From: Pseudomonas sp. DC1.2
Lineage (GTDB): Bacteria > Pseudomonadota > Gammaproteobacteria > Pseudomonadales > Pseudomonadaceae
Length of the DNA: 64,000 bases
Reading direction: 5' to 3'
Assembly (NCBI RefSeq): GCF_034351645.1
Contig: NZ_CP133782.1
Span: 4,469,001-4,533,000 of the forward strand
Within the stretch, counting starts at the first letter, position 1. Each line of letters begins with the position of its first letter. Below are positions 7,652-64,000 of this stretch, one piece after another. The notes below the pieces were generated by a model that saw only the letters and a list, made by a program, of their open reading frames with translations, was not told the DNA's origin and ran no database searches. Position numbers and translations under genes: made by a program.

Positions 7652-9331
7652 ATGAGCATGCTCAAAGACCCGTCTTCGAAGTACCGTGCATTCCCAACCA
7701 TCGACATCCCGGACCGCACTTGGCCGTCGAAGACTATTACTGCCGCGCCGATCTGGTGCAGCTCGGACCTGCGTGACGGTAACCAGTCGCTGATCGAGCC
7801 GATGGACGCGGTCAAGAAGCTGCGCTTCTGGAAAACGCTGGTGTCGGTAGGCGTGAAAGAAATCGAAGCCTCGTTCCCGGCGGCGTCGCAAACTGACTTC
7901 GACTTCGTGCGCACGCTGATCGAAGACGGCCACATCCCGGACGACACCACGATTCAGGTGCTGACCCAAGGCCGTGAAGATTTGATCGAGCGCACGTTTG
8001 AATCGCTGCGCGGCGCGAAAAAAGCCATCGTTCACCTGTACAACGCGACGTCCCCTTCTTTCCGCCGCATTGTCTTTAACCAGGACAAGGACGGGATTAA
8101 GGCCATCGCCGTGAACGCCGCCAAGCTGTTCGTCAAATACGCCGCCCTGCAGCCGGACACCCAGTGGACCTTCGAATACTCGCCGGAAACCTTCAGCGCC
8201 ACTGAACTGGAGTTCGCCAAGGAAGTGTGCGATGCGGTGATCGACGTCTGGAACCCGACGCCTGAGCACAAGGTGATCCTCAACCTGCCTGCCACCGTTG
8301 AATGCGCTACACCGAACATCTACGCCGACCAGATCGAATGGTTCGGCCGCCACATCAACCGTCGTGACAGCGTGATCATCAGCCTGCACACCCACAACGA
8401 CCGTGGCACCGGCGTGGCCGCCACTGAATTGGGCCTGATGGCCGGCGCAGACCGTGTCGAAGGCTGCCTGTTCGGCAACGGCGAGCGCACCGGCAACGTC
8501 GATCTTGTGACCGTGGCGTTGAACCTCTACACCCAGGGCATTCACCCTGAACTGGACTTCTCCGACATCGACGGCGTGCGCAAAGTTGTCGAAGAGTGCA
8601 ACCAGATTCCGGTACACCCGCGCCACCCTTACGTGGGCGACCTGGTACACACCGCATTCTCCGGCTCGCACCAGGACGCTATCCGCAAAGGCTTCGCCCA
8701 GCAGAAGCCTGACACGCTGTGGGAAGTCCCTTACTTGCCGATCGACCCGGCCGACATCGGCCGCAGCTACGAGGCGGTAATTCGCGTCAATAGCCAGTCG
8801 GGCAAGGGCGGTATCGCCTACCTGCTGGAGCAGGAATACGGCATCAGCTTGCCGCGTCGCATGCAGATCGAATTCAGCCAGGTCGTGCAACGCGAAACCG
8901 ATCGCCTGGGTCTGGAAATGACGGCCCAGCAAATCCACGCGCTGCTTCACAGCGAATACTTGCAGGCCAACACCCCCTACGCGCTGGTCAGCCATCGCTT
9001 GCAAGAAGAAAACGGCAATAGTGCCGTGGAAGTGGAAGTCTCGGGCAAAGGCCAGGGCGAAACCAACCTGCACTGGCGCGGCAAGGGCAACGGTGCTCTG
9101 GAAGCGCTGGTGGCCGGCCTGCCGATTCCGGTAGAAATCATGGACTACAACGAACACGCCATCGGCGCGGGCACCAACGCCAAGGCAGCGGCCTACATTG
9201 AACTGCGCGTTGACGGCCAGCGTGCGGTGCATGGCGTGGGTATCGATGAAAACATCACCACCGCCAGCTTCAAGGCACTGTTCAGCGCACTGAACCGCTC
9301 GCTGAGCCAGCCGGAAGCAAAAGCGGCGTAA
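7652..9331 (+). CDS. leuA: 2-isopropylmalate synthase
   Basis: Condenses acetyl-CoA with 2-ketoisovalerate, the first committed step of leucine synthesis. At 559 residues it is the longer LeuA type found in pseudomonads and actinobacteria. The TIM barrel has [13 protein letters not shown] near residue 40 (catalytic Arg/Asp and metal site), the metal-binding HTHNDRGTG near 248, and [11 protein letters not shown] shortly after. The C-terminal LeuA dimer domain (from about 435), which binds leucine for feedback inhibition, is complete. The start [11 protein letters not shown] follows the AAGGATTTTCCG ribosome site. The upstream leader suggests additional control by leucine supply. Confidence 0.97.
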
Positions 9332-9348
9332 TCGATTGCCGCGACGCA

Positions 9349-9383
9349 AAAGGCCCCACGGTGCGAACCTTGGGGCCTTTCTT
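9349..9383. terminator. Bidirectional terminator after leuA
   Basis: A 10-bp stem, AAAGGCCCCA (9349-9358) with TGGGGCCTTT (9371-9380), followed by CTTC and preceded by AAA. It serves leuA and the convergent amidase gene. Confidence 0.85.
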
Positions 9384-9414
9384 CATTCCTAGGCTCAGCG
9401 TGGACGCTGATCGG

Positions 9415-10206
9415 TTACGTGAGCTCAAAGGTGTCGGCATCCAGATTCGCCGGAAACCGTGTGCGATAAGCCGCCAGTTCCGCCGCTTCCAACACCACCT
9501 CAAATACCCCATCTGCCTCGCCGGCACTGAGCAACGTCTCGCCCTGAAAATCCAGCACCTGACTGTCACCGGTGTAGGAAAAGCCCTTACCGTCAGTGCC
9601 GATTCGGTTTACCGCTGCGACATAACACAGATTTTCAATCGCCCTGGCCGGCAACAACCGGTTCCAGTGCTGGCGCCGCGCACCCGGCCAGTTGGCGGTG
9701 TACAGCAACAGGTCCGTGTCCTGAGCATCACGACTCCAGACCGGGAACCGTAAGTCGTAGCAAATCAGTGGCCGCACGCGCCAGCCCTTGAGTTCGAACT
9801 GCACCTGGCGCTCGCCAGGGGTGTAGTGGTTATGCTCCCCCGCCATGCGAAACAGGTGGCGCTTGTCGTAATGCAGCACCTCCCCGTCCGGTCGCGCCCA
9901 AAGCAGTCGATTGCGATGACTGCCATCGGCGGCCTGGACGATCACACTGCCGGTGATCACAGCATCCAGCCTCGCGGCCTGAACTTTCAGCCACTTAGTA
10001 GTAGGGCCATTTTCCGATTCGGCGAGGGTCTCCGACTGCATGGAAAACCCGGTGGTGAACATCTCTGGCAGGATGATCAGGTCCGCGCCGCGGGCTTGTT
10101 CCAGCAACTGCTCGAAGTGCTCTAGATTGGCCTGGCGGTCGTGCCAGGCCAGCGTGGTCTGGATCAGCGCAATGTTCAGGTTAGGCAGCGCACTCAGATC
10201 ACGCAT
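9415..10206 (-). CDS. Nitrilase-family omega-amidase
   Basis: A 263-residue member of the carbon-nitrogen hydrolase superfamily. The catalytic triad is visible: Glu in LPEMFTTGF, Lys in HYDKRHLFRM and Cys in RPLICYDLRFP. Length and motifs fit the YafV/Nit2 type, which hydrolyses alpha-ketoglutaramate or alpha-ketosuccinamate to the 2-oxoacid. The start overlaps the 3' end of the upstream aminotransferase gene by 13 bases, implying translational coupling. The pairing fits the transaminase/omega-amidase route, in which the amidase removes the ketoamide made when glutamine donates its amino group. It is cytoplasmic. Confidence 0.88.
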   Translation of the reverse strand: MRDLSALPNLNIALIQTTLAWHDRQANLEHFEQLLEQARGADLIILPEMFTTGFSMQSETLAESENGPTTKWLKVQAARLDAVITGSVIVQAADGSHRNRLLWARPDGEVLHYDKRHLFRMAGEHNHYTPGERQVQFELKGWRVRPLICYDLRFPVWSRDAQDTDLLLYTANWPGARRQHWNRLLPARAIENLCYVAAVNRIGTDGKGFSYTGDSQVLDFQGETLLSAGEADGVFEVVLEAAELAAYRTRFPANLDADTFELT

Positions 10207-53543: not shown

Positions 53544-54725
53544 TTACTCCAGCGCCGAGGCCGGCCCGAAGAACTCATAACGGCTTTGCTGCGGCGGCAC
53601 ACCCAACGCCCCGAGGTGACGCTTGATCGCCGCCATGAAGCCCTTGGGGCCCAGGAAGTAGGCATCCAGATCCCGCTCCGGCGGCAACCACTCGCCCAAT
53701 TGCTCTTGGCTTAACAGCCCGAGCTTGTGCGCTGCGGGGCTAACGCCATCATCTTCGGCATAGCAATAAAAACGTTTGAGCTGCGGGTAACGCTCCGCCA
53801 TCCCGTCGATCCAGTCCCGAAAAGCATGCACGCTGCCATTGCGCGCGCAGTGGATAAAGTGAATCGGACGCTGAGTCGCCACCGCCGCTTCGAGCATCGC
53901 CAACATCGGGGTGATGCCGACACCACCACTGATTAGCACCAGCGGTTTGTCACTGGCTGCCAACGTGAACTCACCCGAAGGCGGGAATAACTGGAGGCTC
54001 GCGCCGACAGGCAGAGAATCATGTAAGTAGTTGGACGCACGGCCACCGCTTTCGCGCTTGACGCTGATGCGGTACCGCCCCTTGTCCGACAGGGAGGACA
54101 GCGAGTAGTTACGCCGAATCTCCTCGCCATCGAGGACCAGTTTCATGCCGATGTACTGGCCCGGCTCGGCCGCGAGAAGCGGGCCGTTGTCGGCGGGCTC
54201 GAGGTAAAACGAAACGATCTCCGCACTCTCTTCAACCCTGTCCACGACAGTGAACTCCCGCGCACCGCGCCAGCCGCCCGGCGCCTGGTGTTTTTGGTCG
54301 TAGAGACGGGCTTCGGCACCGATCAGGATATCTGCCAATTGGTTATAGGCCGCGCCCCAGGCCGCGATGACGTCAGGGGTCGCCACCTCCTCGCCCAAGA
54401 CCTCGGCAATGGCGCGCAACAAACAGGTACCGACAATCGGGTAGTGTTCCGGCAGGATTTGCAGGGCTACATGCTTATTGACGATGTTGGCCACCAAATC
54501 GCCCAGCGAGTCGAGTTGGTCGATGTGCCGCGCATACATCAATACGCCATTGGCCAGGGCACGGGGCTGGTCACCGCTGGCCTGGTGGGCCGGATTGAAC
54601 AGCGGCCGCACTTCAGGGTATTCCGACAGCATCATGCGATAGAAGTACGTGATTAACGCTTCACCGCCGCTCTCCAGCAGCGGTACGGTGGATTTAACAA
54701 TGGCACGGTCTTGAAGGCTAAGCAT
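53544..54725 (-). CDS. hmp: Flavohemoglobin (nitric oxide dioxygenase)
   Basis: Detoxifies NO to nitrate using O2 and NADPH, 393 residues from MLSLQDRAIVKST; TTAGGAGTCACC before this ATG supports it. The globin domain (1-140) has the heme-proximal His in VNKHVALQILPEHY region and distal Tyr/Gln in LITYFYRMM. The FAD domain has RNYSLSS and the NAD domain has ISGGVGITPMLAML. It is divergent from norR; a sigma54-type promoter and NorR-type boxes lie between. Confidence 0.95.
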   Translation of the reverse strand: MLSLQDRAIVKSTVPLLESGGEALITYFYRMMLSEYPEVRPLFNPAHQASGDQPRALANGVLMYARHIDQLDSLGDLVANIVNKHVALQILPEHYPIVGTCLLRAIAEVLGEEVATPDVIAAWGAAYNQLADILIGAEARLYDQKHQAPGGWRGAREFTVVDRVEESAEIVSFYLEPADNGPLLAAEPGQYIGMKLVLDGEEIRRNYSLSSLSDKGRYRISVKRESGGRASNYLHDSLPVGASLQLFPPSGEFTLAASDKPLVLISGGVGITPMLAMLEAAVATQRPIHFIHCARNGSVHAFRDWIDGMAERYPQLKRFYCYAEDDGVSPAAHKLGLLSQEQLGEWLPPERDLDAYFLGPKGFMAAIKRHLGALGVPPQQSRYEFFGPASALE

Positions 54726-54764
54726 AAAGGTGACTCCTAAGCTTGGTTTGACTACCTTGGGCTT

Positions 54765-54780
54765 ATCAGTTTCCGTGCCA
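54765..54780 (-). promoter_or_regulatory. Sigma54 promoter facing hmp
   Basis: The minus strand reads TGGCACGGAAACTGAT. This fits TGGCACG-N4-TTGCW with perfect -24 box and two mismatches in the -12 box. It lies 40-55 bases upstream of the hmp ATG, as expected for activation by the adjacent NorR. Confidence 0.65.
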
Positions 54781-54806
54781 AAAAATAAAACGTTAAAAAT
54801 CAATTA

Positions 54807-54872: not shown

Positions 54873-56423
54873 ATGACTGCAAAACCCTTGCTGACAGCGC
54901 TTCTGCCTCTGGTCAGTGACCTGTCGCGCGAACTGCCCGAAGGTGAGCGCTACCGACGCCTGCTCCACGCGATGCGCACCCTGCTCCCCTGCGATGCCGC
55001 CGCCCTGCTGCGCCTGGACGGCGAGTGGTTGGTGCCACTGGCCGTGGACGGCTTGAGCACCGACACCCTCGGCCGACGCTTCAAAGTCAGCGAACATCCA
55101 CGTTTCGAAGCGTTGCTGTCCAGCCCCGGACCCAAACGCTTCGCCGCCGACAGTGAGTTGCCAGACCCCTATGATGGCTTGGTCGAAGGGCGCGCCGAAC
55201 ATCTGGAAGTCCATGACTGCATAGGCTGCCCACTGTTTATCGACGAACGTCCGTGGGGCCTGTTGACACTCGATGCGTTGGACCCGGAGCGCTTCGAACC
55301 AATCGAGCTGGAGGCCTTGCAAGCCTTCGCCAGCCTCGCTGCCGCCACCGTCAACGCCGCCGAGCGCATCGAACGGCTGGCCAATCGCGCCGAAGACGAA
55401 CATCAACGCGCCGAGGTCTACCGTCAGGCCAGTGGCCAGCAACGCCACGAGATGATCGGCCAGAGCAAAGCCCACAAACGCCTGGTGGAGGAAATCAACT
55501 TGGTGGGCGGCAGCGATTTGACCGTGCTGATCACCGGCGAAACCGGCGTCGGCAAGGAACTGGTGGCCCAAGCGATCCACGCAGCGTCGCCCAGGGCTGA
55601 CAAACCGGTCATCAGCCTCAACTGCGCCGCCCTTCCCGACGCCCTGGTGGAAAGCGAGTTGTTTGGCCATGTGCGCGGCGCGTTTACAGGGGCGACGAGC
55701 GACCGCCGGGGCAAATTCGAACTGGCCAACGGGGGCACGTTGTTTCTCGATGAAGTCGGTGAACTGTCACTGAAGGTGCAGGCCAAGTTGCTGCGCGTAC
55801 TGCAAAGCGGTCAGCTGCAACGATTGGGTTCAGATAAAGAGCATCACGTGGACGTGAGGCTGATCGCCGCAACCAACCGCGACCTCGCCGAAGAAGTGCG
55901 TAGCGGTCGCTACCGTGCCGACTTCTACCACCGCCTGAGCGTTTACCCACTGCGGGTGCCGGCGCTGCGCGATCGCGGGCGGGATGTGCTGCTGATCAGC
56001 GGTTACTTCCTGGAACAGAACCGCTCGCGCCTGGGCCTCAACAGTCTGCGACTGAACAGCGACGCCCAGGCTGCATTGCTCGCGTATGACTGGCCAGGGA
56101 ACGTAAGGGAGCTGGAACACTTGATAGGTCGCAGCGCCTTAAAGGCATTGGGCAACTGCAAACCACGGCCGAAAATGCTTGGTTTGAGTGCGGCGGATCT
56201 GGATTTACCTCAAGAGCGCGCTGAACACCCCGCTGAGCAGCCCACCGTCAACCCTGTCGCGTTACTGGCGGGTGACTTGCGGGCCGCGACCGAGGATTAT
56301 CAGCGTCAACTGATCAGCGCCTGCCTGGAGCGCCACCACAATAATTGGGCCAGCGCGGCGCGTGAGCTAGGCTTGGATCGGGCGAATCTCGGGCGGATGG
56401 CCAAGCGTTTGGGGATGAAGTGA
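54873..56423 (+). CDS. norR: NO-responsive sigma54 activator NorR
   Basis: A 516-residue enhancer-binding protein. The N-terminal GAF domain (about 20-170) senses NO through a non-heme iron. The AAA+ domain (about 190-425) has Walker A GETGVGKE, the sigma54-contact loop GAFTGA and Walker [13 protein letters not shown]. The C-terminal Fis-type helix-turn-helix is [20 protein letters not shown]. It is divergent from hmp, its likely target. Confidence 0.95.
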
Positions 56424-56568: not shown

Positions 56569-57471
56569 ATGTCTTCCAACAAAGCCCGCGCAGATTCACT
56601 GTCGCTTCTGCTGTTTACCTTGCGCAGCGGCAAGCTGATGGCGATCAACCTGCTCAAAGTCAGTGAAATCATTCCCTGCCCGCCGCTGACCAAGCTGCCC
56701 GAGTCACACCCGCACGTCAAAGGCATCGCCACGTTGCGCGGCACCTCATTGTCGGTCATCGACTTGAGCCGCGCGATCGGCGAACGACCACTGGAAGACC
56801 CCAACGGCGGCTGCCTGATCGTCACCGACGTCAGCCGCTCCAAGCAGGGCCTGCACGTGCAGGCGGTGAGCAAGATCATTCACTGCCTGACCACCGACAT
56901 CCGTCCGCCGCCCTTCGGCTCCGGCGGCGTGCGCTCATACATCACAGGCGTGACCTCGGTGGACGGGGCCTTGGTGCAAGTACTGGATATCGAAAAGGTC
57001 ATCCACGGCATCGCACCGGCGCAGATCGTCATGGCGCCGACCGAACTGAGCATGGAAGACGCTGAAGTGCTGGGCAATGCGCGAATCCTGGTGGTCGATG
57101 ACAGCCAAACCGCGCTCCAGCAATCCGTACACACCTTGCGCAACCTCGGCTTGCAGTGCCACACCGCTCGCAGCGCCAAGGAAGCCATCGACTGCTTGCT
57201 GGACCTGCAAGGCACTGTGCAGCAAATCAACCTGATCGTCTCAGACATCGAAATGTCGGAAATGGACGGCTACGCCTTCACTCGCACGCTGCGCGAAACG
57301 CCTGACTTTGCCCACCTTTACGTGTTGTTGCACACGTCTCTGGACAGCGCCATGAACAGCGAAAAGGCACGTCTGGCCGGGGCCAACGCCGTCCTGACCA
57401 AGTTCTCGTCGCCGGAACTGACCAAGTGTCTGATCGAAGCCGCCAAGGCAGTTGCCGAGCAAGGACACTGA
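56569..57471 (+). CDS. Chemotaxis coupling protein CheV
   Basis: A 300-residue CheW-receiver fusion that couples receptors to CheA and may act as a phosphate sink. The CheW domain is residues about 12-155 (LLFTLRSGKLMAINLLKVSE, IATLRGTSLSVIDLSRAIG). The receiver (about 170-300) has VVDDSQTALQQS, the phosphorylated Asp in LIVSDIEMSEMDG and the Lys in LTKFSSPEL. No other chemotaxis gene is in the window. A GNAT gene follows immediately. Confidence 0.93.
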   Translation: MSSNKARADSLSLLLFTLRSGKLMAINLLKVSEIIPCPPLTKLPESHPHVKGIATLRGTSLSVIDLSRAIGERPLEDPNGGCLIVTDVSRSKQGLHVQAVSKIIHCLTTDIRPPPFGSGGVRSYITGVTSVDGALVQVLDIEKVIHGIAPAQIVMAPTELSMEDAEVLGNARILVVDDSQTALQQSVHTLRNLGLQCHTARSAKEAIDCLLDLQGTVQQINLIVSDIEMSEMDGYAFTRTLRETPDFAHLYVLLHTSLDSAMNSEKARLAGANAVLTKFSSPELTKCLIEAAKAVAEQGH

Positions 57472-57472
57472 G

Positions 57473-57955
57473 TTGGCCGAGGATTTCTGCTTTCTGATGC
57501 GGCGCAACCTCGTCGACGCACTGCCGGCTGTCACGTGGCCGAGCGGGATAGCGTTAACCACGTATCGCCCCGAACTCGCCGACGCCGTGCATCGGTTGAT
57601 GACCCAGGGCTACCAAGAAGGTGGCGGTCGCGTACCGACGCTGGACGTCTGGCAACGGCGTTTTGAAACCGACCCCGAATACGACCCGGACCTGTGCTTC
57701 ATCGCCCAGGACGCCGAAGGCATTGCCGGGGTGTGTCAGTGCTGGACCAGCGCCTACATCAAAAACCTGGTGGTGCATCCTCGGGCGCAGCGCATAGGGC
57801 TGGGCCGCGCATTGCTGCTGCAGGCGTTCAAGGTATTTGAACAACGCCGGGAAGGCTGGGTGGACTTGAAAGTGCTGGAGCACAACCAACGGGCACAACG
57901 CCTGTATGAAAATGTCGGAATGCGCGTGGTTCGCCGGGAACCCGTACCGGCCTGA
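57473..57955 (+). CDS. GNAT-family N-acetyltransferase coupled to cheV
   Basis: A 160-residue acetyltransferase. I place the start at TTG 57473, one base after the cheV stop, with AAGGA seven bases upstream; an ATG eight codons on is the alternative. The acetyl-CoA loop is VHPRAQRIGLGRALLLQ and the C-terminus has LKVLEHNQRAQRLYENVGM. The substrate is unknown. Confidence 0.8.
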   Translation: MAEDFCFLMRRNLVDALPAVTWPSGIALTTYRPELADAVHRLMTQGYQEGGGRVPTLDVWQRRFETDPEYDPDLCFIAQDAEGIAGVCQCWTSAYIKNLVVHPRAQRIGLGRALLLQAFKVFEQRREGWVDLKVLEHNQRAQRLYENVGMRVVRREPVPA

Positions 57956-58050
57956 GACCGCCATCGTCGTATGGCGGCCCGGAGCAAGCGAGCGCTCACC
58001 CTCAGGCATACTCCAACCTTGACCCTCACCCACCCAAGGATGCCTACCCC

Positions 58051-58377
58051 ATGAAAGCCATCACCCTGACCGTCCTCTGCCTCAGCGCCCTCGCCCCTCA
58101 AGCCCAAGCGTCCAGCCCAGAAGCGTGGGCCGCCTACGACAGCACTGTACTCGCCAGTTGCACCCAGGCCAGCGCCCTGAAAAACGCCCAGCCAGTCGGC
58201 AGTGCGGCGCAATTCGACGACCAGATCGGCTATACCGCCCTCCTACTTCAAGGCCAATACCCGCAAAAACATCTGAAGGGCCAGCAAGGCACCGAACTGT
58301 GCCTCTACAACAAAAAGACCAAAACCGCCTATGTGACTGAATGGGACAGCGTCCGCCCGACAGCAACGTCGCAATGA
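58051..58377 (+). CDS. Small exported protein, function unknown
   Basis: 108 residues with a clear signal peptide (MKAITLTVLCLSALAPQAQA), leaving about 88 mature residues. Two cysteines remain in the mature part (ASCTQAS and ELCLYNKK), which could form a disulfide. I recognise no domain. Confidence 0.72.
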   Translation: MKAITLTVLCLSALAPQAQASSPEAWAAYDSTVLASCTQASALKNAQPVGSAAQFDDQIGYTALLLQGQYPQKHLKGQQGTELCLYNKKTKTAYVTEWDSVRPTATSQ

Positions 58378-58460
58378 CTGGCGCATAACTTGCTTCATCC
58401 CACCTCTACGCGGTGGCTTTCTGTCGCCGTTTAACGACCTGACATGCGACTGATCGATCA

Positions 58461-59210
58461 ATGAACACGACATTTTCCTGCGTAGGTTGTGGCAAATGCT
58501 GCACAGACCACCATGTGCCCCTGACCCTGAGCGAAGCCAGGATGTGGGCGGCGGATGGTGGTCAGGTGATCGTGCTGGTCGAGGGATTCCTGGGCAACGG
58601 CCTGGGCCTGCCGATGCAACAGCGCGAGCACGCCGAACGCCGCTCGGTGAGGGTCAACAGCGGCGCGGCCGACGCCTACGTAGCGATCACATTCGCCGCG
58701 TACAACGTCGGCCCCTGCCGGAATCTTGACGACGACAACCTTTGCCGCATCTACGATCGCCGGCCGCTGGTGTGCCGCATCTACCCTATGGAAATCAATC
58801 CACACATTCCCTTGAATCCGCAGGTGAAGGAGTGTCCACCCGAGTCGTGGGAAAAGGGGCCTGACTTGATTATCGGTGGCCAGTTGGTGGATCAGGCACT
58901 GGCGGAATTGATTCAACGCTCGCGTCAGGCCGATCGCGATGACGTGCAAGTCAAGGACGTCATTTGTTCGCAACTGGGGATTCGGACCACAGCGCTCAAG
59001 GGGGATGGATTTACCGCTTACCTGCCGGACATGGCCGCCTTCGCAGCGGTCGTCGATAACGTCATGGCACAACCATCGTCAGCGGCTACCAGTGAATGGT
59101 TGTTCCATGTCTCGGGCGAAGATATTGCCGGGCAAGTGCTGGCAGGCGGGGCTCAGGTGGCGACGGATGCCCCGCTGAATTATGCGTTTATTTCTTTGCG
59201 GGCGGCTTGA
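58461..59210 (+). CDS. YkgJ-type cysteine-cluster protein
   Basis: 249 residues. The zinc/iron cysteine cluster of the YkgJ family is visible: CVGCGKCCTDHHVPLT at the N-terminus, then GPCRNLDDDNLCRIYDRRP and PLVCRIYPMEI. The usual small domain is followed by about 130 residues specific to longer members. Function of the family is not settled; some members are tied to Fe-S or protein modification. Confidence 0.85.
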   Translation: MNTTFSCVGCGKCCTDHHVPLTLSEARMWAADGGQVIVLVEGFLGNGLGLPMQQREHAERRSVRVNSGAADAYVAITFAAYNVGPCRNLDDDNLCRIYDRRPLVCRIYPMEINPHIPLNPQVKECPPESWEKGPDLIIGGQLVDQALAELIQRSRQADRDDVQVKDVICSQLGIRTTALKGDGFTAYLPDMAAFAAVVDNVMAQPSSAATSEWLFHVSGEDIAGQVLAGGAQVATDAPLNYAFISLRAA

Positions 59211-59329
59211 TCATCCACGATGCGCGCGCAGAGCGTCCGCGCTGAACCTCCAGAAACAAAGACCTCGGTATTTAGTCCTCACCCTGCCGCGAACACACCT
59301 CGGGCAGGTGAGGATCAGCCGTAAACCTG

Positions 59330-60472
59330 TCAGCGAGCGGTAACCGCCAGGCATTCAACTTCGACTCGTGCATTCAATACTAGCTTGCTGGCGGCAAACG
59401 TCGTGCGCGCCGGCAAACGATCCGCCGGGAAAGAGCGCTTGTAGACCTCATTCATCGCACCGAAATCCTTGATATCAGCGAGGATGACCGTGCATTTGGC
59501 CACGTGATCCAGGGACGAACCGCCGCTTATCAATGCCGCGCGCAAGTTATGCATGGTCTGGGTCATCTGCGGGACAATACCGCCCTTGACCAATTTGCCA
59601 TCAGTGCCGAGACCCACTACGCCTGACAGATAAACAGTCTCCCCAACCTGAACGGCATCAGAAAATGGCAGGCCTTCGTCGTTGGGAAAATAGCGTGGAA
59701 CATCAGCGACGGCTGGCGGCAGGTAGCGCTGGGTAATCGTTTGGTACTGGCCGTTTTGCTTGAGACGCTCAAGTGCAGCGTTCAGGTTATCGCGTAACAC
59801 GGTGTCGGTTTTACGCAGCGCCATCGCAACGCCACTCCCCAGCATCGGATCGTTGAGGGCCGGCCCGGCAAACGAAAAATCGCGTCCATAGGGATGGTTG
59901 AGCAGCGCATGGGTAATTTCAATGGTGTCTTGCAGGGTGGCATCGATTTCACCCGCCGCCAGGCTGGCAATCAGTTGATCGTTGAAATTGAAACTGCGCA
60001 CCACCACACCTTCCGGAGCCCAGCGCGCCTTGGCGAACGCTTCACGACTGGTGCCCGCGAGTACGCCAACCCGCTTGCCCTTAAGCGACAAAGCGGTCGG
60101 TTGCAAACCCGCATCCTCGCGCGCCACCAAGCGGCTGCTAAGCGGATAAAGGTTCTCGGTGAAATCGATACGCTCGCGACGTGCCGGCGTCGGAGTCATC
60201 GGCATGATCGCATCGAATCGCCCGGCTTCAAGGGCTTCGATATTGGTCGCGTAGTCTTGGTCAACCCAGACACACCGTGCGTTGAGCTCGGCACACAACG
60301 CATTGCCCAACTCGATGTTCAGCCCCACCAGTTCACCCTTGTCGTCACGGCTCTCGAACGGCGGGACCAGAGCTTCGACGCCAAAACGGATCTGCGGGTC
60401 GACGGCTGACGACACGCAACCTGTGGTCAGTGACATCAGAAAAAACAGTGCGGGGATTTTTACCAGGGGCAT
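59330..60472 (-). CDS. Fusion: ABC-type solute-binding lipoprotein with C-terminal RidA domain
   Basis: 380 residues from MPLVKIPALFFLMSL. A signal with Cys19 in SLTTGC, an imperfect lipobox, suggests anchoring outside the cytoplasm. Residues 26-252 are a family 3 amino-acid-binding protein: IRFGVEALVPPFESRD, LVGLNIELGNAL and MTPTPARRERIDFTENL. Residues 259-378 are a full RidA/YjgF domain (YLSGVVGLGTDGKLVKGG, PARTTFAASKL), with Arg369 in NARVEVE at the position of the imine-binding Arg of active RidA. No permease or ATPase is adjacent. A 42-residue upstream extension is possible but unlikely. The reading frame is continuous across the junction. Confidence 0.85.
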   Translation of the reverse strand: MPLVKIPALFFLMSLTTGCVSSAVDPQIRFGVEALVPPFESRDDKGELVGLNIELGNALCAELNARCVWVDQDYATNIEALEAGRFDAIMPMTPTPARRERIDFTENLYPLSSRLVAREDAGLQPTALSLKGKRVGVLAGTSREAFAKARWAPEGVVVRSFNFNDQLIASLAAGEIDATLQDTIEITHALLNHPYGRDFSFAGPALNDPMLGSGVAMALRKTDTVLRDNLNAALERLKQNGQYQTITQRYLPPAVADVPRYFPNDEGLPFSDAVQVGETVYLSGVVGLGTDGKLVKGGIVPQMTQTMHNLRAALISGGSSLDHVAKCTVILADIKDFGAMNEVYKRSFPADRLPARTTFAASKLVLNARVEVECLAVTAR

Positions 60473-60610
60473 TTCGATGGCCTTCTTCAAGAGTTCACGA
60501 GCATGAATCTTCGACGAAGGACCACCGACTTTCCCATAGGACGATTCGCGCATCCTTGTGGGAACTGTCTCTTTAAGGGGGGGGCAATGACCAGCCAATC
60601 AAACTGACTG

Positions 60611-60868
60611 TCAGCGTTTACCCATCGAACGACGAGTACCCGGTGGTGCGACGCCAGGCGTCTTGGTGTGACCGTTCTTGGCGCCGTTCTTGTACCACGG
60701 CTGACTCGCACTCTTGGCCGCAGCCAAATCGCCCGGTTTGAACGGAAACTTGAACGCTGGGATGTCGGCTTTGGTTTCGCTGTCTGCGCTGGAGTCGACG
60801 CTGTCTGGCAGGTCTGCCTGGTCGTCGCGCAAAGCGTCGGCGACCGGCGGTTGTGTCGGGGAAGTCAT
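60611..60868 (-). CDS. Small conserved protein, function unknown
   Basis: 85 residues, charge-polarised. The N-terminal half is acidic (DDQADLPDSVDSSADSETKA) and the C-terminal half basic and aromatic (PWYKNGAKNGHTKTPG, TRRSMGKR). It is probably largely disordered; I recognise no domain. The codon pattern suits a real gene. Confidence 0.55.
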   Translation of the reverse strand: MTSPTQPPVADALRDDQADLPDSVDSSADSETKADIPAFKFPFKPGDLAAAKSASQPWYKNGAKNGHTKTPGVAPPGTRRSMGKR

Positions 60869-61006
60869 GAAAGCTCCGGGTGATGCACAAAGAGTCGGGC
60901 CCGATCAGCGAGCCGCGAAAGGCGGCAGTATACCTGCCCGGCCGACACACGCACGCGCACCTTCGTCGGCCGTGAAAGAATTTCCAACGACGGCCGTTGC
61001 TTGCCC

Positions 61007-61333
61007 TTACCGGTAGGTAACGGTGATGATCCCCGATTCAGGCCCAGAAACGCTGCCATTGCTGGACGCCTTCAAGGGTTCAAACGCTGTCGAAAAAGGA
61101 ATCGTGCCATGACCACAAGCGTTACGGTACGTGTCGACATCCAGGCTCAACCCAGGCTGCACTTGTACACGCTGGGACTGGGTAAAGCTTTGCGCCCCAG
61201 CACGCCCCACCTGGCAGCCCGAATCGACGATTTGCCCGACAAAATCAATCTGCCCCGAAGACACCTGTGGCGCGGCAGAGACGCCCAGCGGCATCAGCAA
61301 CAGCACACTTGAAACGACGACTTTAAGATTCAT
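61007..61333 (-). CDS. Short fimbrial-type exported protein
   Basis: 108 residues from MNLKVVVSSVLLL; signal cleavage is near GVSAAPQV. The mature part starts like type 1 pilins (GQIDFVGQIVDSGCQV), has a second Cys in NACGHG and ends GIITVTYR, like a pilin last strand. It is much shorter than the usual 150-170 mature residues. No usher or chaperone is adjacent. Confidence 0.6.
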   Translation of the reverse strand: MNLKVVVSSVLLLMPLGVSAAPQVSSGQIDFVGQIVDSGCQVGRAGAQSFTQSQRVQVQPGLSLDVDTYRNACGHGTIPFSTAFEPLKASSNGSVSGPESGIITVTYR

Positions 61334-61654
61334 TTCAAAGACACTCCCGGCATAACAACCCAGGATTCGCCTGAGCCACGAGCGGGACGCGTTACGACTG
61401 AACCCCACAACTTCTGTATCCGCCCGCCGGAACAGATCTTTAACAGCTTAGCGGGAAAAAGCGCCTGACCAGAGCAACGGATATCCCCCGCCCCCCCAAA
61501 ACCAGGTCGGCCCAGAGGCCGCCAAGACCAAAACCAAAAGCCCAAACTGACAGCGCCGTCAGCTAGCCGTCACCGTCCTGACCGTGTAGCAAGACTATAA
61601 GAAAGGTATATAGCCGATACCACTCCCAACCACCCAGCCCGGCGTCCCACCCGC
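61334..61654. other. Gap before the RND efflux operon
   Basis: About 320 bases without a convincing gene. It contains runs of C and A-rich repeats around 61490-61550 and an AT-rich patch GACTATAAGAAAGGTATATAG near 61593 that may hold the promoter. No regulator gene is adjacent. Confidence 0.5.
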
Positions 61655-62815
61655 ATGCGAACTCATAAAAAAAATGCCTTGATCGCCGCCGCCCTGATTA
61701 TTCTGGCCGCGCTGAGCCTGTGGTACGCCACCAAACCCGCCACCACCAAACTTGCCACCCCCACCGCCATCCCCGTGCGCGTGGTCAGCGTCACCCAAAA
61801 AGACGTGCCACGCTACGTCAGCGGTATCGGCTCGGTGATCTCCCTGCACAGCGTCGTGGTGCGTGCGCAGATCGACGGCATCCTCACCAAAATACTGGTC
61901 AAGGAAGGGCAACTCGTCAAAACCGGCGACCTGCTCGCCACCATCGACGATCGCTCGATTCGCGCCAACCTCGATCAGGCCCGTGCCCAGCTGGGCCAAA
62001 GCCAGGCACAACTGCAAGTCGCGGAGGTCAACCTCAAGCGCTACAAGTTATTGAGTGTCGATGACGGCGTGTCCAAGCAGACTTACGACCAGCAACAAGC
62101 GCTGGTCAACCAGCTCAAGGCCACCGCACAGGGAAATCAGGCCGCCATCGACTCTGCCCTGGTGCAACTTTCATACACGCAGATCCACTCTCCGGTTACC
62201 GGTCGCGTCGGCATTCGCACGGTGGATGAGGGCAACTTCCTGCGCATGACGGACACGCAAGGCCTGTTCACGGTGACCCAGATTGATCCGATTGCCGTGG
62301 CATTCGCCTTGCCGCAGCAAATGCTCCCGACCCTGCAAGGCCTGATAAATGATCCCCAACACGCCCAGGTCAAGGCCTACATCGGCGCCGACACCGAGGG
62401 CGAAACCGGCAACCTGCTCGGCGAAGGCCATCTGACACTGATCGATAACCAGATCAGCGCCAACACCGGGACCATTCGCGCCAAGGCTGAATTCAATAAC
62501 TCCGGACAGAAGCTCTGGCCCGGCCTGCTGGTCACGGTAAAAATTCAGACAGCGCTGGATAAGGATGCACTGGTAGTGCCGCCTACTGTCGTACAACGCG
62601 GCCTCGACCAACATTTCGTGTATCGGGTCAACGGTGACAAAGTCGAAACCGTGTCCGTGCAAATGGTCTATCAAGGCAGCAGTCAGGACATTATCAAAGG
62701 CGTTAACCCCGGCGACGTGCTCGTCAGCGACGGTCAGTCGCGACTCAAGCCCGGTTCAACCGTGCAGGTGCTGACGGATCCGCCGCCGGTGGTGCAATCG
62801 GAGTCGCCGCAATGA
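61655..62815 (+). CDS. RND efflux periplasmic adaptor subunit
   Basis: A 386-residue membrane-fusion protein of the MdtA/MuxA type. The N-terminal anchor is NALIAAALIILAALSLWY. The lipoyl halves (VRAQIDGILTKILVKEGQLV and SPVTGRVGIRTVDEGNFL) flank a helical hairpin, and the beta-barrel and membrane-proximal domains follow. There is no clear Shine-Dalgarno before the ATG. It overlaps the pump gene as ATGA. Confidence 0.9.
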   Translation: MRTHKKNALIAAALIILAALSLWYATKPATTKLATPTAIPVRVVSVTQKDVPRYVSGIGSVISLHSVVVRAQIDGILTKILVKEGQLVKTGDLLATIDDRSIRANLDQARAQLGQSQAQLQVAEVNLKRYKLLSVDDGVSKQTYDQQQALVNQLKATAQGNQAAIDSALVQLSYTQIHSPVTGRVGIRTVDEGNFLRMTDTQGLFTVTQIDPIAVAFALPQQMLPTLQGLINDPQHAQVKAYIGADTEGETGNLLGEGHLTLIDNQISANTGTIRAKAEFNNSGQKLWPGLLVTVKIQTALDKDALVVPPTVVQRGLDQHFVYRVNGDKVETVSVQMVYQGSSQDIIKGVNPGDVLVSDGQSRLKPGSTVQVLTDPPPVVQSESPQ

Positions 62816-64000
62816 AGGGCCACGGCTCCGTCTCCGCATGGTGCATCGACCACCCGGTGGCGACAATTCTGCTGACGTTTGCGCTGGTGTTGCTAGGGGT
62901 GATTGCCTTCCCGCGCCTGCCGATTGCGCCCTTACCGGAAGCGGAATTCCCGACCATTCAGGTGTCCGCGCAATTACCCGGCGCCAGCCCCGACACCATG
63001 GCCTCGTCGGTGGCCACGCCGCTGGAAGTGCAATTCAGTGCCATCCCCGGCATGACCCAAATGACCTCGAGCAGTGCCTTGGGCTCCAGCCTGCTGACCC
63101 TGCAATTCACTCTCGACAAAAGCATCGACACCGCGGCCCAGGAAGTGCAGGCCGCGATCAATACCGCCGCCGGCAAATTACCCAAGGACATGCCGACGCT
63201 ACCGACTTGGAAGAAGGTCAACCCGGCCGACAGCCCGGTGCTGATCCTCAGCGTCAGCTCGACCCAGATGCCCGGCACTGAACTCAGTGACTTGGTGGAA
63301 ACCCTGCTTTCGCGCCAGATCAGTCAAATCGACGGCGTAGGCCAAATCAACATCACCGGCCAGCAACGTCCGGCGATCCGGGTGCAGGTGTCGGCTGACA
63401 AACTCGCGGCCATCGGCCTGACGCTGGCGGACATTCGTCTGGCGATCCAGCAGACCAGCCTCAACCTGGCCAAAGGCGCGCTGTACGGTGAGTCGAGTAT
63501 TTCGACCCTGTCCACCAACGACCAGTTGTTTCACCCCGAGGAATACAGTCAGCTGATTGTTTCCTACAAGGACGGGGCACCGGTCCACCTCAAGGATGTG
63601 GCCAACGTTGTCAACGGTTCGGAAGATGCCTACGTTCAGGCCTGGGCCGGCGATCAACCCGGTGTGAACCTGGTGATCTCCCGGCAACCCGGCGCGAACA
63701 TCGTCGAGACCGTAGACCGTATTCAGGCCGCCCTGCCGCGACTGGAAGCCATGTTGCCGGCCTCGGTGCAGGTCAAGGTGTTGATCGACCGCACCCAGAC
63801 CATCCGTGCCTCGCTGCATGAAGTGGAAATAACCTTGCTCATCGCGATCATGCTAGTGGTGGCGGTGATGGCGCTGTTCTTGCGCCAGTTATCGGCAACG
63901 ATGATTGTGTCCGCGGTACTCGGCGTTTCGCTGGTCGCCAGTTTCGCCCTGATGTACATCATGGGGTTCAGCCTGAACAACCTGACCCTGGTAGCGATCG
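62812..64000 (+). CDS. RND efflux permease, N-terminal part (runs off the window)
   Basis: 396 codons are visible. The start MKGHGSVSAWCIDHPVATIL overlaps the adaptor stop. TM1, the porter-domain segment LPEAEFPTIQVSAQLPGASP and DTMASSVATPLE, and the start of the TM2-4 block (LLIAIMLVVAVMALFLR) are typical of the HAE-1/MdtB-like class. A partner permease and outer-membrane factor may follow beyond the window. Confidence 0.92.
   Translation, partial: MKGHGSVSAWCIDHPVATILLTFALVLLGVIAFPRLPIAPLPEAEFPTIQVSAQLPGASPDTMASSVATPLEVQFSAIPGMTQMTSSSALGSSLLTLQFTLDKSIDTAAQEVQAAINTAAGKLPKDMPTLPTWKKVNPADSPVLILSVSSTQMPGTELSDLVETLLSRQISQIDGVGQINITGQQRPAIRVQVSADKLAAIGLTLADIRLAIQQTSLNLAKGALYGESSISTLSTNDQLFHPEEYSQLIVSYKDGAPVHLKDVANVVNGSEDAYVQAWAGDQPGVNLVISRQPGANIVETVDRIQAALPRLEAMLPASVQVKVLIDRTQTIRASLHEVEITLLIAIMLVVAVMALFLRQLSATMIVSAVLGVSLVASFALMYIMGFSLNNLTLVAI

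Follow-up and report, generated by a model that had tools for sequence, protein, structure and literature searches.

We analyzed a 64,000-nucleotide stretch of the Pseudomonas sp. DC1.2 genome (contig NZ_CP133782.1, positions 4,469,001 to 4,533,000 of the forward strand; hereafter the window, numbered from its first letter) and focused on one minus-strand gene near its end, in which a family 3 solute-binding protein (SBP) is joined to a complete RidA domain. The two-domain fusion is genuine, conserved and under purifying selection, carries an export-type signal and an intact RidA site, and brings two familiar families together in an unexpected compartment. The gene and its parts are the following.

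59330..60472, minus strand: SBP_bac_3-RidA fusion coding sequence, 380 amino acids plus stop (open reading frame and Pfam)
60481..60487, minus strand: putative ribosome-binding site AAGAAGG, 8 bases 5' of the ATG at 60472 (sequence, by eye)
60419..60472, minus strand: lipoprotein-type signal peptide, residues 1-18 (PROSITE-style lipobox, hydrophobic core)
60416..60418, minus strand: Cys19, predicted lipidated +1 residue (sequence and lipobox)
59720..60391, minus strand: SBP_bac_3 domain, residues 28-251 (Pfam; closest solved sequences HisJ and LAO)
59669..59719, minus strand: interdomain linker, residues 252-268 (lower model confidence)
59342..59668, minus strand: RidA (Ribonuc_L-PSP) domain, residues 269-377 (Pfam and structural matches)
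59405..59407, minus strand: Arg356, equivalent of Escherichia coli RidA Arg105, which contacts the ligand carboxylate (alignment)
59360..59362, minus strand: Glu371, equivalent of E. coli RidA Glu120 (alignment)

The reading frame is single and uninterrupted, with 380 codons plus a stop and no frameshift, as the original prediction, made from the sequence alone, had proposed. Both domains scored far above their Pfam cut-offs, SBP_bac_3 with E 3.8e-30 (104.8 bits against a cut-off of 26.4; profile positions 1-130 of 132) and Ribonuc_L-PSP with E 1.7e-26 (93 bits against 27.3; profile positions 10-120 of 121), which bears out the proposed pairing of a family 3 amino-acid-binding module with a full RidA domain. 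The closest solved sequence to the SBP domain is HisJ (E 1.1e-55), and its predicted model has the two-lobed LAO/HisJ fold (6ft2; template-modeling (TM) score 0.90 by target length, root-mean-square deviation 1.6 Å), while the RidA domain matches 5hp7 with a TM score of 0.93. Over residues 251-270, which span the linker, the block-mean predicted local distance difference test (pLDDT) values were 60 and 65. A promoter and terminator scan at the locus found nothing beyond shuffled controls.

A survey of genomes, suggested with the original prediction, found the fusion repeatedly. In the genus, 199 genomes were surveyed; at a threshold of 1e-60 there were matches in 44, of which 23, the window's own included, hold a full-length fusion, and seven of these 23 also hold a separate SBP relative at the same threshold. 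At 1e-75, the window's own genome was the sole match among 369 genomes of the class, and 11 of 398 genomes of the phylum matched, three of them with full-length fusions, all from Pseudomonas. A further scan, for two SBP peptide patterns, covered a collection of 84,980 species genomes; diverged fusions would escape it. It yielded 110 relatives, and the best 80 were fetched, comprising 45 full-length fusions, one locus (L088) in which most of RidA is gone and 34 RidA-less loci. The genus and named-locus surveys cover partly the same strains, and their counts are not additive; genes were called by a codon-usage script that picked antisense frames in places and cut some N-termini. All 46 fusions (45 loci and the window) read in a single frame with the same domain order, rather than showing the frameshift or the invariably separate genes that the original prediction had weighed against itself; the RidA-less loci run partly contrary to it. 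The Pseudomonas fusions come from P. mandelii, P. frederiksbergensis, P. koreensis, P. poae, P. trivialis, P. viridiflava, P. gingeri, P. brenneri, P. gessardii and others. Two lie outside the genus, one in Herbaspirillum (L086) and one in Nitratireductor (L094), and neither is obvious contamination because their neighbors look, by eye, unlike the genes of the chromosomal slot in Pseudomonas that is described below. Window positions 57000-63500 had no high-identity match among plasmid records; by tblastn, 11 plasmid records had a single place that spanned at least 80% of the query, and 2 of the 11 were examined.

The N termini of the 46 fusions were rebuilt and judged by hydropathy and by a lipobox pattern that we take to be the PROSITE-style one. 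Every fusion has a hydrophobic start (best 10-residue mean hydropathy at least 2.0), a lipobox is present in 27 and absent in 19, and two begin at TTG in the rebuilt reading. In the window protein, the signal is MPLVKIPALFFLMSLTTG followed by C19 and fits the pattern, in line with the lipoprotein-like signal that had been proposed. As judged from these N termini, an export-type start appears common to all fusions, and a lipid anchor appears to be a trait of some clades, including the window's, whose protein is probably anchored by a lipid on Cys19. The same sequence evidence supports the earlier placement of the protein outside the inner membrane.

Alignment with E. coli RidA puts R356, within the motif LPAR, at the position of Arg105 and E371 at that of Glu120. 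The original prediction had named Arg369 as the imine-binding arginine; this assignment was mistaken, as R369 aligns to Lys118. According to passages of PMC4433059, Arg105 binds the ligand carboxylate and its replacement nearly abolishes activity, and passages of PMC5619798 treat its equivalent as a predictor of deaminase activity. The equivalent is kept in all 46 fusions. Thirty-nine of them, the window's included, form what we call type I, with Ser30, Gly31, Arg105 and Glu120 in 39/39 and Asn88 in 36. The other seven (type II; L089-L093, L095 and L096) retain Arg105 and Ser30, and in all seven Glu120 is replaced by Ala, Gly31 by Thr, Asp, Ser or Asn, and position 107 by Val. We mapped by hand, from the alignment, the K136/E182 salt bridge described for the Arabidopsis RidA trimer in a passage of PMC4960622. 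The window protein has this pair as K326/E373; across type I, the first position is K in 33, R in 4 and Q in 2 and the second E in 36, D in 2 and Q in 1, and across type II these are K in 7, and E in 6 with G in 1. Because of this pattern of site and salt-bridge residues, the type II RidA looks as though it can still trimerize and hold a ligand by its carboxylate, with catalysis probably lost.

By sequence, the fusion RidA is closer to the UK114/AtRidA type (1.8e-21) than to PA5083 (1.1e-6), a protein classed as Rid2 in a passage of PMC5619798. Searched for in 299 genomes of the phylum, the nearest stand-alone RidAs share 42-50% identity with it, and their gene neighborhoods, viewed by eye at 10 of these places (no genes were called at one, L174), revealed no pairing with an SBP. 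C327 and C374 are both Cys in 46/46 fusions. We considered a disulfide between them as a mark of the periplasm and dropped it, since both cysteines also occur in 9 of 23 stand-alone Rid sequences.

Ratios of nonsynonymous to synonymous substitution (dN/dS), from which pairs with dS of 0 or at least 1.5 were dropped, indicate similar purifying selection on the two domains in the window's clade (SBP 0.123, RidA 0.129; 135 and 117 of 190 pairs kept, respectively). The values are 0.108 and 0.210 in type II (20 and 18 of 21 pairs) and 0.152 and 0.243 in the type I poae/syringae group (36 and 36 of 55); in the gingeri group, 3 and 3 of 3 pairs were kept. By these values, RidA is as constrained as the SBP in the window's clade and less so in two other groups, and selection only partly matches the decay of RidA in type II. 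These data bear on the notion that the fusion is a recent accident or an assembly error without function. Its rarity (the 23 of 199 genus genomes) and the deletion of most of RidA in L088 and its absence in L100 would suit such an origin, but the same architecture recurs in many independent assemblies from three bacterial families, and in the window's clade dN/dS is about 0.13 for both domains and the active site is conserved, which leaves an accident hardly credible.

Some RidA/YabJ proteins are chaperones activated by chlorination, and the periplasm is exposed to oxidants; on both facts rests the proposal that RidA here acts as a chaperone for envelope stress, activated in this way, with the binding domain merely anchoring or placing it. 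One entry among the structure matches listed (8yrc) is chlorinated YabJ, and RidA was counted 13 times in a review of the hypochlorite response (PMC7464077). We nevertheless regard a chaperone as very unlikely: the conservation of the imine site in 39/39 type I fusions would be needless, and no oxidant-response gene was noticed beside the fusion, although no search was aimed at one.

In the SBP domain we compared the residues of the HisJ/LAO amino-acid site, namely Tyr14, Ser69, Ser70, Ser72, Arg77, Gln122 and Asp161, positions that the titles of LAO mutant structures point to as probed site residues. The window protein keeps Arg77 and Asp161, the latter of which we take to bind the ligand amino group in HisJ, and has Thr for Ser72 and Arg for Gln122. 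The counts that follow, in HisJ numbering, cover 88 family rows (45 fusions and 43 others, with the L087 fusion and L100 outside the set). In all 88, Arg77 is kept, Gln122 is Arg, and one of Ser69/Ser70 is gone and the other is Pro or Gly. At position 161, 32 of the fusions have Asp, 6 have Asn and 7 have Gly; of the 43 others, 42 have Gly, and the lone Asp belongs to L088, by all its letters a truncated fusion. These residues suggest that the window SBP has the anchors for an amino and a carboxyl group and a side-chain pocket unlike that of the Lys/Arg/His binders. The domain resembles HisJ and LAO (ArgT) in its fold, in its identity of 38-40% in the structural matches, in the Arg77 and Asp161 equivalents and in a cysteine pair, C60/C67, that matches a pair in the aligned HisJ sequence; it differs in the loss of Ser69/Ser70, with a one-residue deletion, in Tyr14 and Gln122, in its C-terminal RidA and in the lack of an adjoining permease. 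A cyclohexadienyl dehydratase (CDT)-like enzyme in this domain was unsupported: CDT and CDT-ancestor chains (5tuj, 5t0w, 5jos and 6wup) matched at E 6e-19 to 8e-13, versus 1.1e-55 for HisJ, in a comparison that did not extend to the catalytic residues.

The best explanation, which we put forward tentatively and with somewhat less than even confidence, is that the fused protein is exported and, probably as a trimer, deaminates imines or enamines, helped by an amino-acid-type binding domain of its own. RidA would trimerize and form a single barrel whose three active sites lie between subunits, with the three binding domains placed around it; the binding domain would capture an amino-acid-like substrate or its precursor and hold it near these sites, where small imines or enamines of amino acids would be hydrolyzed in the periplasm, yielding 2-oxo acids and ammonia. 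In this scheme, we infer the ligand, the direction of its flow and a periplasmic source of imines. Ligand capture coupled to imine handling, as the original prediction had suggested, would fit the window's type, which keeps Arg77 and Asp161 in the SBP and Arg105, Glu120, Ser30 and Gly31 in RidA. A bolder and more doubtful version is that a periplasmic deaminase resets itself as a binder by destroying the ligand it senses, that reactive imino acids (for example, 2-aminoacrylate-type enamines arising from amino acids by oxidation or elimination) do serve as substrates in the envelope or outside the cell, and that one sister lineage has become a dead, Arg105-keeping pseudoenzyme, partly beside a chemoreceptor gene.

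Several observations weigh against a deaminase with a built-in binder. The window SBP is without Ser69 and Ser70 (one deleted, the other Pro) and has Val for Tyr14, so that amino-acid binding is not assured. In the RidA domain, E. coli Tyr17 is replaced by Phe (a residue that 10 of 23 stand-alone Rid sequences also have at this position), and the match to NCBIfam TIGR00004 reached 87.4 bits, under the cut-off of 106.25. The placement of the domains in the predicted fusion model is uncertain (predicted TM score 0.61). RidA is under looser constraint than the SBP in the poae/syringae group, and the 34 of 80 fetched loci with a binding protein alone indicate that it is dispensable in relatives. 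Finally, no imine-forming enzyme adjoins the fusion in the scanned part of the window (56569-63999), and no metabolic partner gene common to the neighborhoods was recognized among those listed, which leave out part of L100-L118.

Nine proteins were scanned with Pfam between 56569 and 63999: the fusion, a CheV-like protein, a GNAT protein, a 108-amino-acid protein, a CxxCxxCC-domain protein, an 85-amino-acid protein, a 133-amino-acid protein, an HlyD protein and an RND pump. None of them is an ATP-binding cassette (ABC) permease or ATPase or an amino-acid oxidase, and the earlier remark that no permease or oxidase lies next to the fusion thus stands. The neighbors that define the setting are these.

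58461..59210, plus strand: CxxCxxCC-domain protein, convergent neighbor and one edge of a conserved slot
60611..60868, minus strand: conserved small protein of 85 amino acids, upstream of the fusion on the same strand (Pfam-negative; 17 rows in its cluster)
61655..62815, plus strand: HlyD-family adaptor of the RND efflux operon, the other edge of the slot

The 133-amino-acid protein (61007-61408, minus strand), between the fusion and the RND operon, looks exported by eye and has no Pfam match. Farther away, we noted by eye a divergent gene pair (53544-54803, minus strand; 54873-56423, plus strand), presumably a flavohemoglobin gene and a NorR-like sigma-54 regulator.

In 65 of 81 loci (the 80 and the window), the family gene lies between the RND efflux operon (HlyD, RND) and the CxxCxxCC-GNAT-CheV group, and RidA-less relatives occupy the same chromosomal slot. 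Its occupant may be a single fusion, a single SBP or an SBP together with a fusion, and either gene may be followed by a methyl-accepting chemotaxis protein (MCP) gene of about 524 amino acids with a PAS domain (Pfam PAS_3 and MCPsignal). This PAS-MCP gene is present in 18 of the 81 loci, and in 17 it starts 96-117 bp downstream of a family gene that has the same orientation; in L072, 1159 bp separate the two. By type, it is present at 4 of 7 type II loci, with 12 of 42 RidA-less genes and at 2 of the 38 type I loci fetched (L071 and L072); in L077, where a type I fusion lies behind an SBP-MCP pair, the MCP was counted with the SBP. The window locus has none. At L045, the gene at 8259-9833 encodes an Aer-like PAS-MCP, and a CheV-like gene shares the slot. 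The PAS-MCP and binding-protein genes could possibly form an SBP-linked chemotaxis unit.

Here the main rival has to be weighed: RidA would be a trimer scaffold and secondary pocket of an orphan periplasmic receptor that signals the presence of a ligand, amino-acid-like or imino, to a partner in the membrane (a chemoreceptor, a kinase or a distant permease), with catalysis incidental or lost. In type II, Glu120 and Gly31 are lost, yet Arg105 stays and the trimer pair is largely intact (K in 7/7, E in 6/7), and the regular spacing of 17 of the 18 PAS-MCP genes points the same way. The abstract of PMC11113362 describes binding proteins that activate sensors, there kinases, as often encoded beside those sensors in P. 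aeruginosa, and passages of PMC7683729 report that the SBP-fold enzyme PaCDT trimerized in evolution, with effects on its open and closed states. On the other side stand the window, which has no MCP, the scarcity of one among type I loci and the full retention of the type I catalytic residues; moreover, the MCP is Aer-like with, by eye, a very short periplasmic loop, so direct contact is hard to picture. We consider such a receptor possible though rather unlikely; it is likelier for type II and fits that degenerate lineage better. The alternative offered in the original prediction, an inactivated RidA used as a ligand sensor, accordingly divides: it does not suit the window protein and would fit the sister lineage of seven fusions, four of which lie just upstream of a PAS chemoreceptor gene.

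Three P. gingeri-group loci (L081, L082 and L084) have an SBP-permease-permease-ATPase row, named by eye, about 3 kb from the fusion. At two loci in genomes of this group (L048 and L050), a row of amino-acid ABC genes about 3 kb off the fusion also includes, by eye, genes for an Lrp-type regulator and an amidinotransferase/CtlX-like protein, a possible link to citrulline or arginine. On two Azospirillum plasmids (L145, 4580-10173; L146, 4524-10126), an operon-like row ends in RidA, SBP_bac_3 and RidA as separate genes. The L145 row, the one scanned with Pfam, includes a DAO-family oxidoreductase, a (2Fe-2S) protein, a Pyr_redox/Fer2_BFD protein and a second DAO-family oxidoreductase, and the L146 row has one more gap in its annotation names; the row looks like an imine-forming amine- or opine-type degradation set. 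We use it as an analogy for teamwork between an SBP and Rid, here as unfused genes behind oxidoreductases of an imine-forming type and with a signal-less Rid behind the SBP. As an unfused ancestor of the fusion it was rejected on 27-28% identity and a different Rid type by eye.

These rows bear on whether the binding domain still serves ordinary transport, delivering its ligand to a HisJ/LAO-type permease whose genes lie elsewhere, with RidA clearing imine damage products of the ligand before uptake. HisJ as the closest solved sequence, the retained Arg77 and Asp161 equivalents, the three nearby transporter rows and the adjacent RidA-SBP-RidA genes in an operon with two DAO-family oxidoreductases would all agree with transport. 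Yet no permease adjoins the fusion in the window and none was recognized in the conserved slot among the neighborhoods listed, Ser69/Ser70 are lost in 88/88 rows, some family members have Gly or Asn in place of Asp161, the Azospirillum Rid 3' of the SBP has no signal and by eye looks of a different type, and a covalently attached RidA trimer might hinder docking to a permease. We judge transport to be improbable.

For the history of the family, we built a tree by a quick method from 44 fusion rows and 22 of the 43 SBP rows (L088 kept), leaving out L112 (cut N terminus, length filter) and L100; the support values, starred here, are from the Shimodaira-Hasegawa-like approximate likelihood ratio test only. 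The family forms one clade against eight outside SBPs (100*). In the best tree, fusions are basal and the RidA-less SBPs form one nested clade (21 rows, 99*) that sits beside the seven type II fusions (joint clade of 28 rows, 100*). Polarity characters are few (4 for, 0 against and 1 other), and approximately unbiased (AU) tests rejected neither RidA-less SBPs branching first (p 0.36) nor all fusions as one clade (p 0.35). An ancestral fusion whose RidA was later weakened and lost is therefore the favored order, but the few polarity characters and the AU tests leave room for the opposite, a later single gain. Under the favored order, L088, with its in-frame loss of residues ~266-345, and L100, a type I-like SBP without RidA, would be further losses. 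A search for RidA remnants at L100, L088 and L101-L134 found none behind the other 33 RidA-less loci; nine extra SBP genes beside fusions lay outside this search.

The RidA domain shares with UK114, AtRidA and E. coli RidA/TdcF a complete domain, the fold, the Arg105, Glu120, Ser30 and Gly31 equivalents and the trimer salt-bridge residues; unlike these proteins, it has an export-type signal in front, sits behind a binding protein and falls under the TIGR00004 cut-off. Tandem Rid proteins (3x-RidA) also carry RidA in fused form, and the survey that describes them set out as well to detect Rid fusions with other families; 3x-RidA proteins are, however, RidA-RidA fusions (passages of PMC4433059). 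In that paper, the passages cited here mention no SBP fusion, and the main text, supplements aside, has 0 hits for periplasm, transport or signal peptide. A close parallel as a rare exported fusion of an SBP fold and an enzyme is the chorismate mutase-CDT protein of PMC10520331, in parts of which the authors discuss a possible signaling role; such a fusion is also listed in a passage of PMC4921024. There, the SBP-fold domain is itself the enzyme, whereas here the partner is RidA and similarity to CDT is far under that to HisJ. Among the matches listed in the open-access literature, which take in neither supplementary files nor most subscription papers, we found no description of an SBP-RidA fusion.

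What appears to be new is the fusion and the apparently exported RidA; both domain families were already known. To our knowledge, work on RidA deals with imines that arise and are removed within the cell. A conserved RidA that is exported in one chain with a binding protein would mean either that reactive imines matter beyond the inner membrane or that the RidA pocket can be reused as part of a receptor. The fusion thus suggests that imine chemistry, or its sensing, may also take place in the cell envelope of some Pseudomonas. With intact, probably dead and RidA-less relatives largely in one chromosomal slot, the family would offer a compact system in which to test how an enzyme domain joined to a receptor is retained, disabled or lost.
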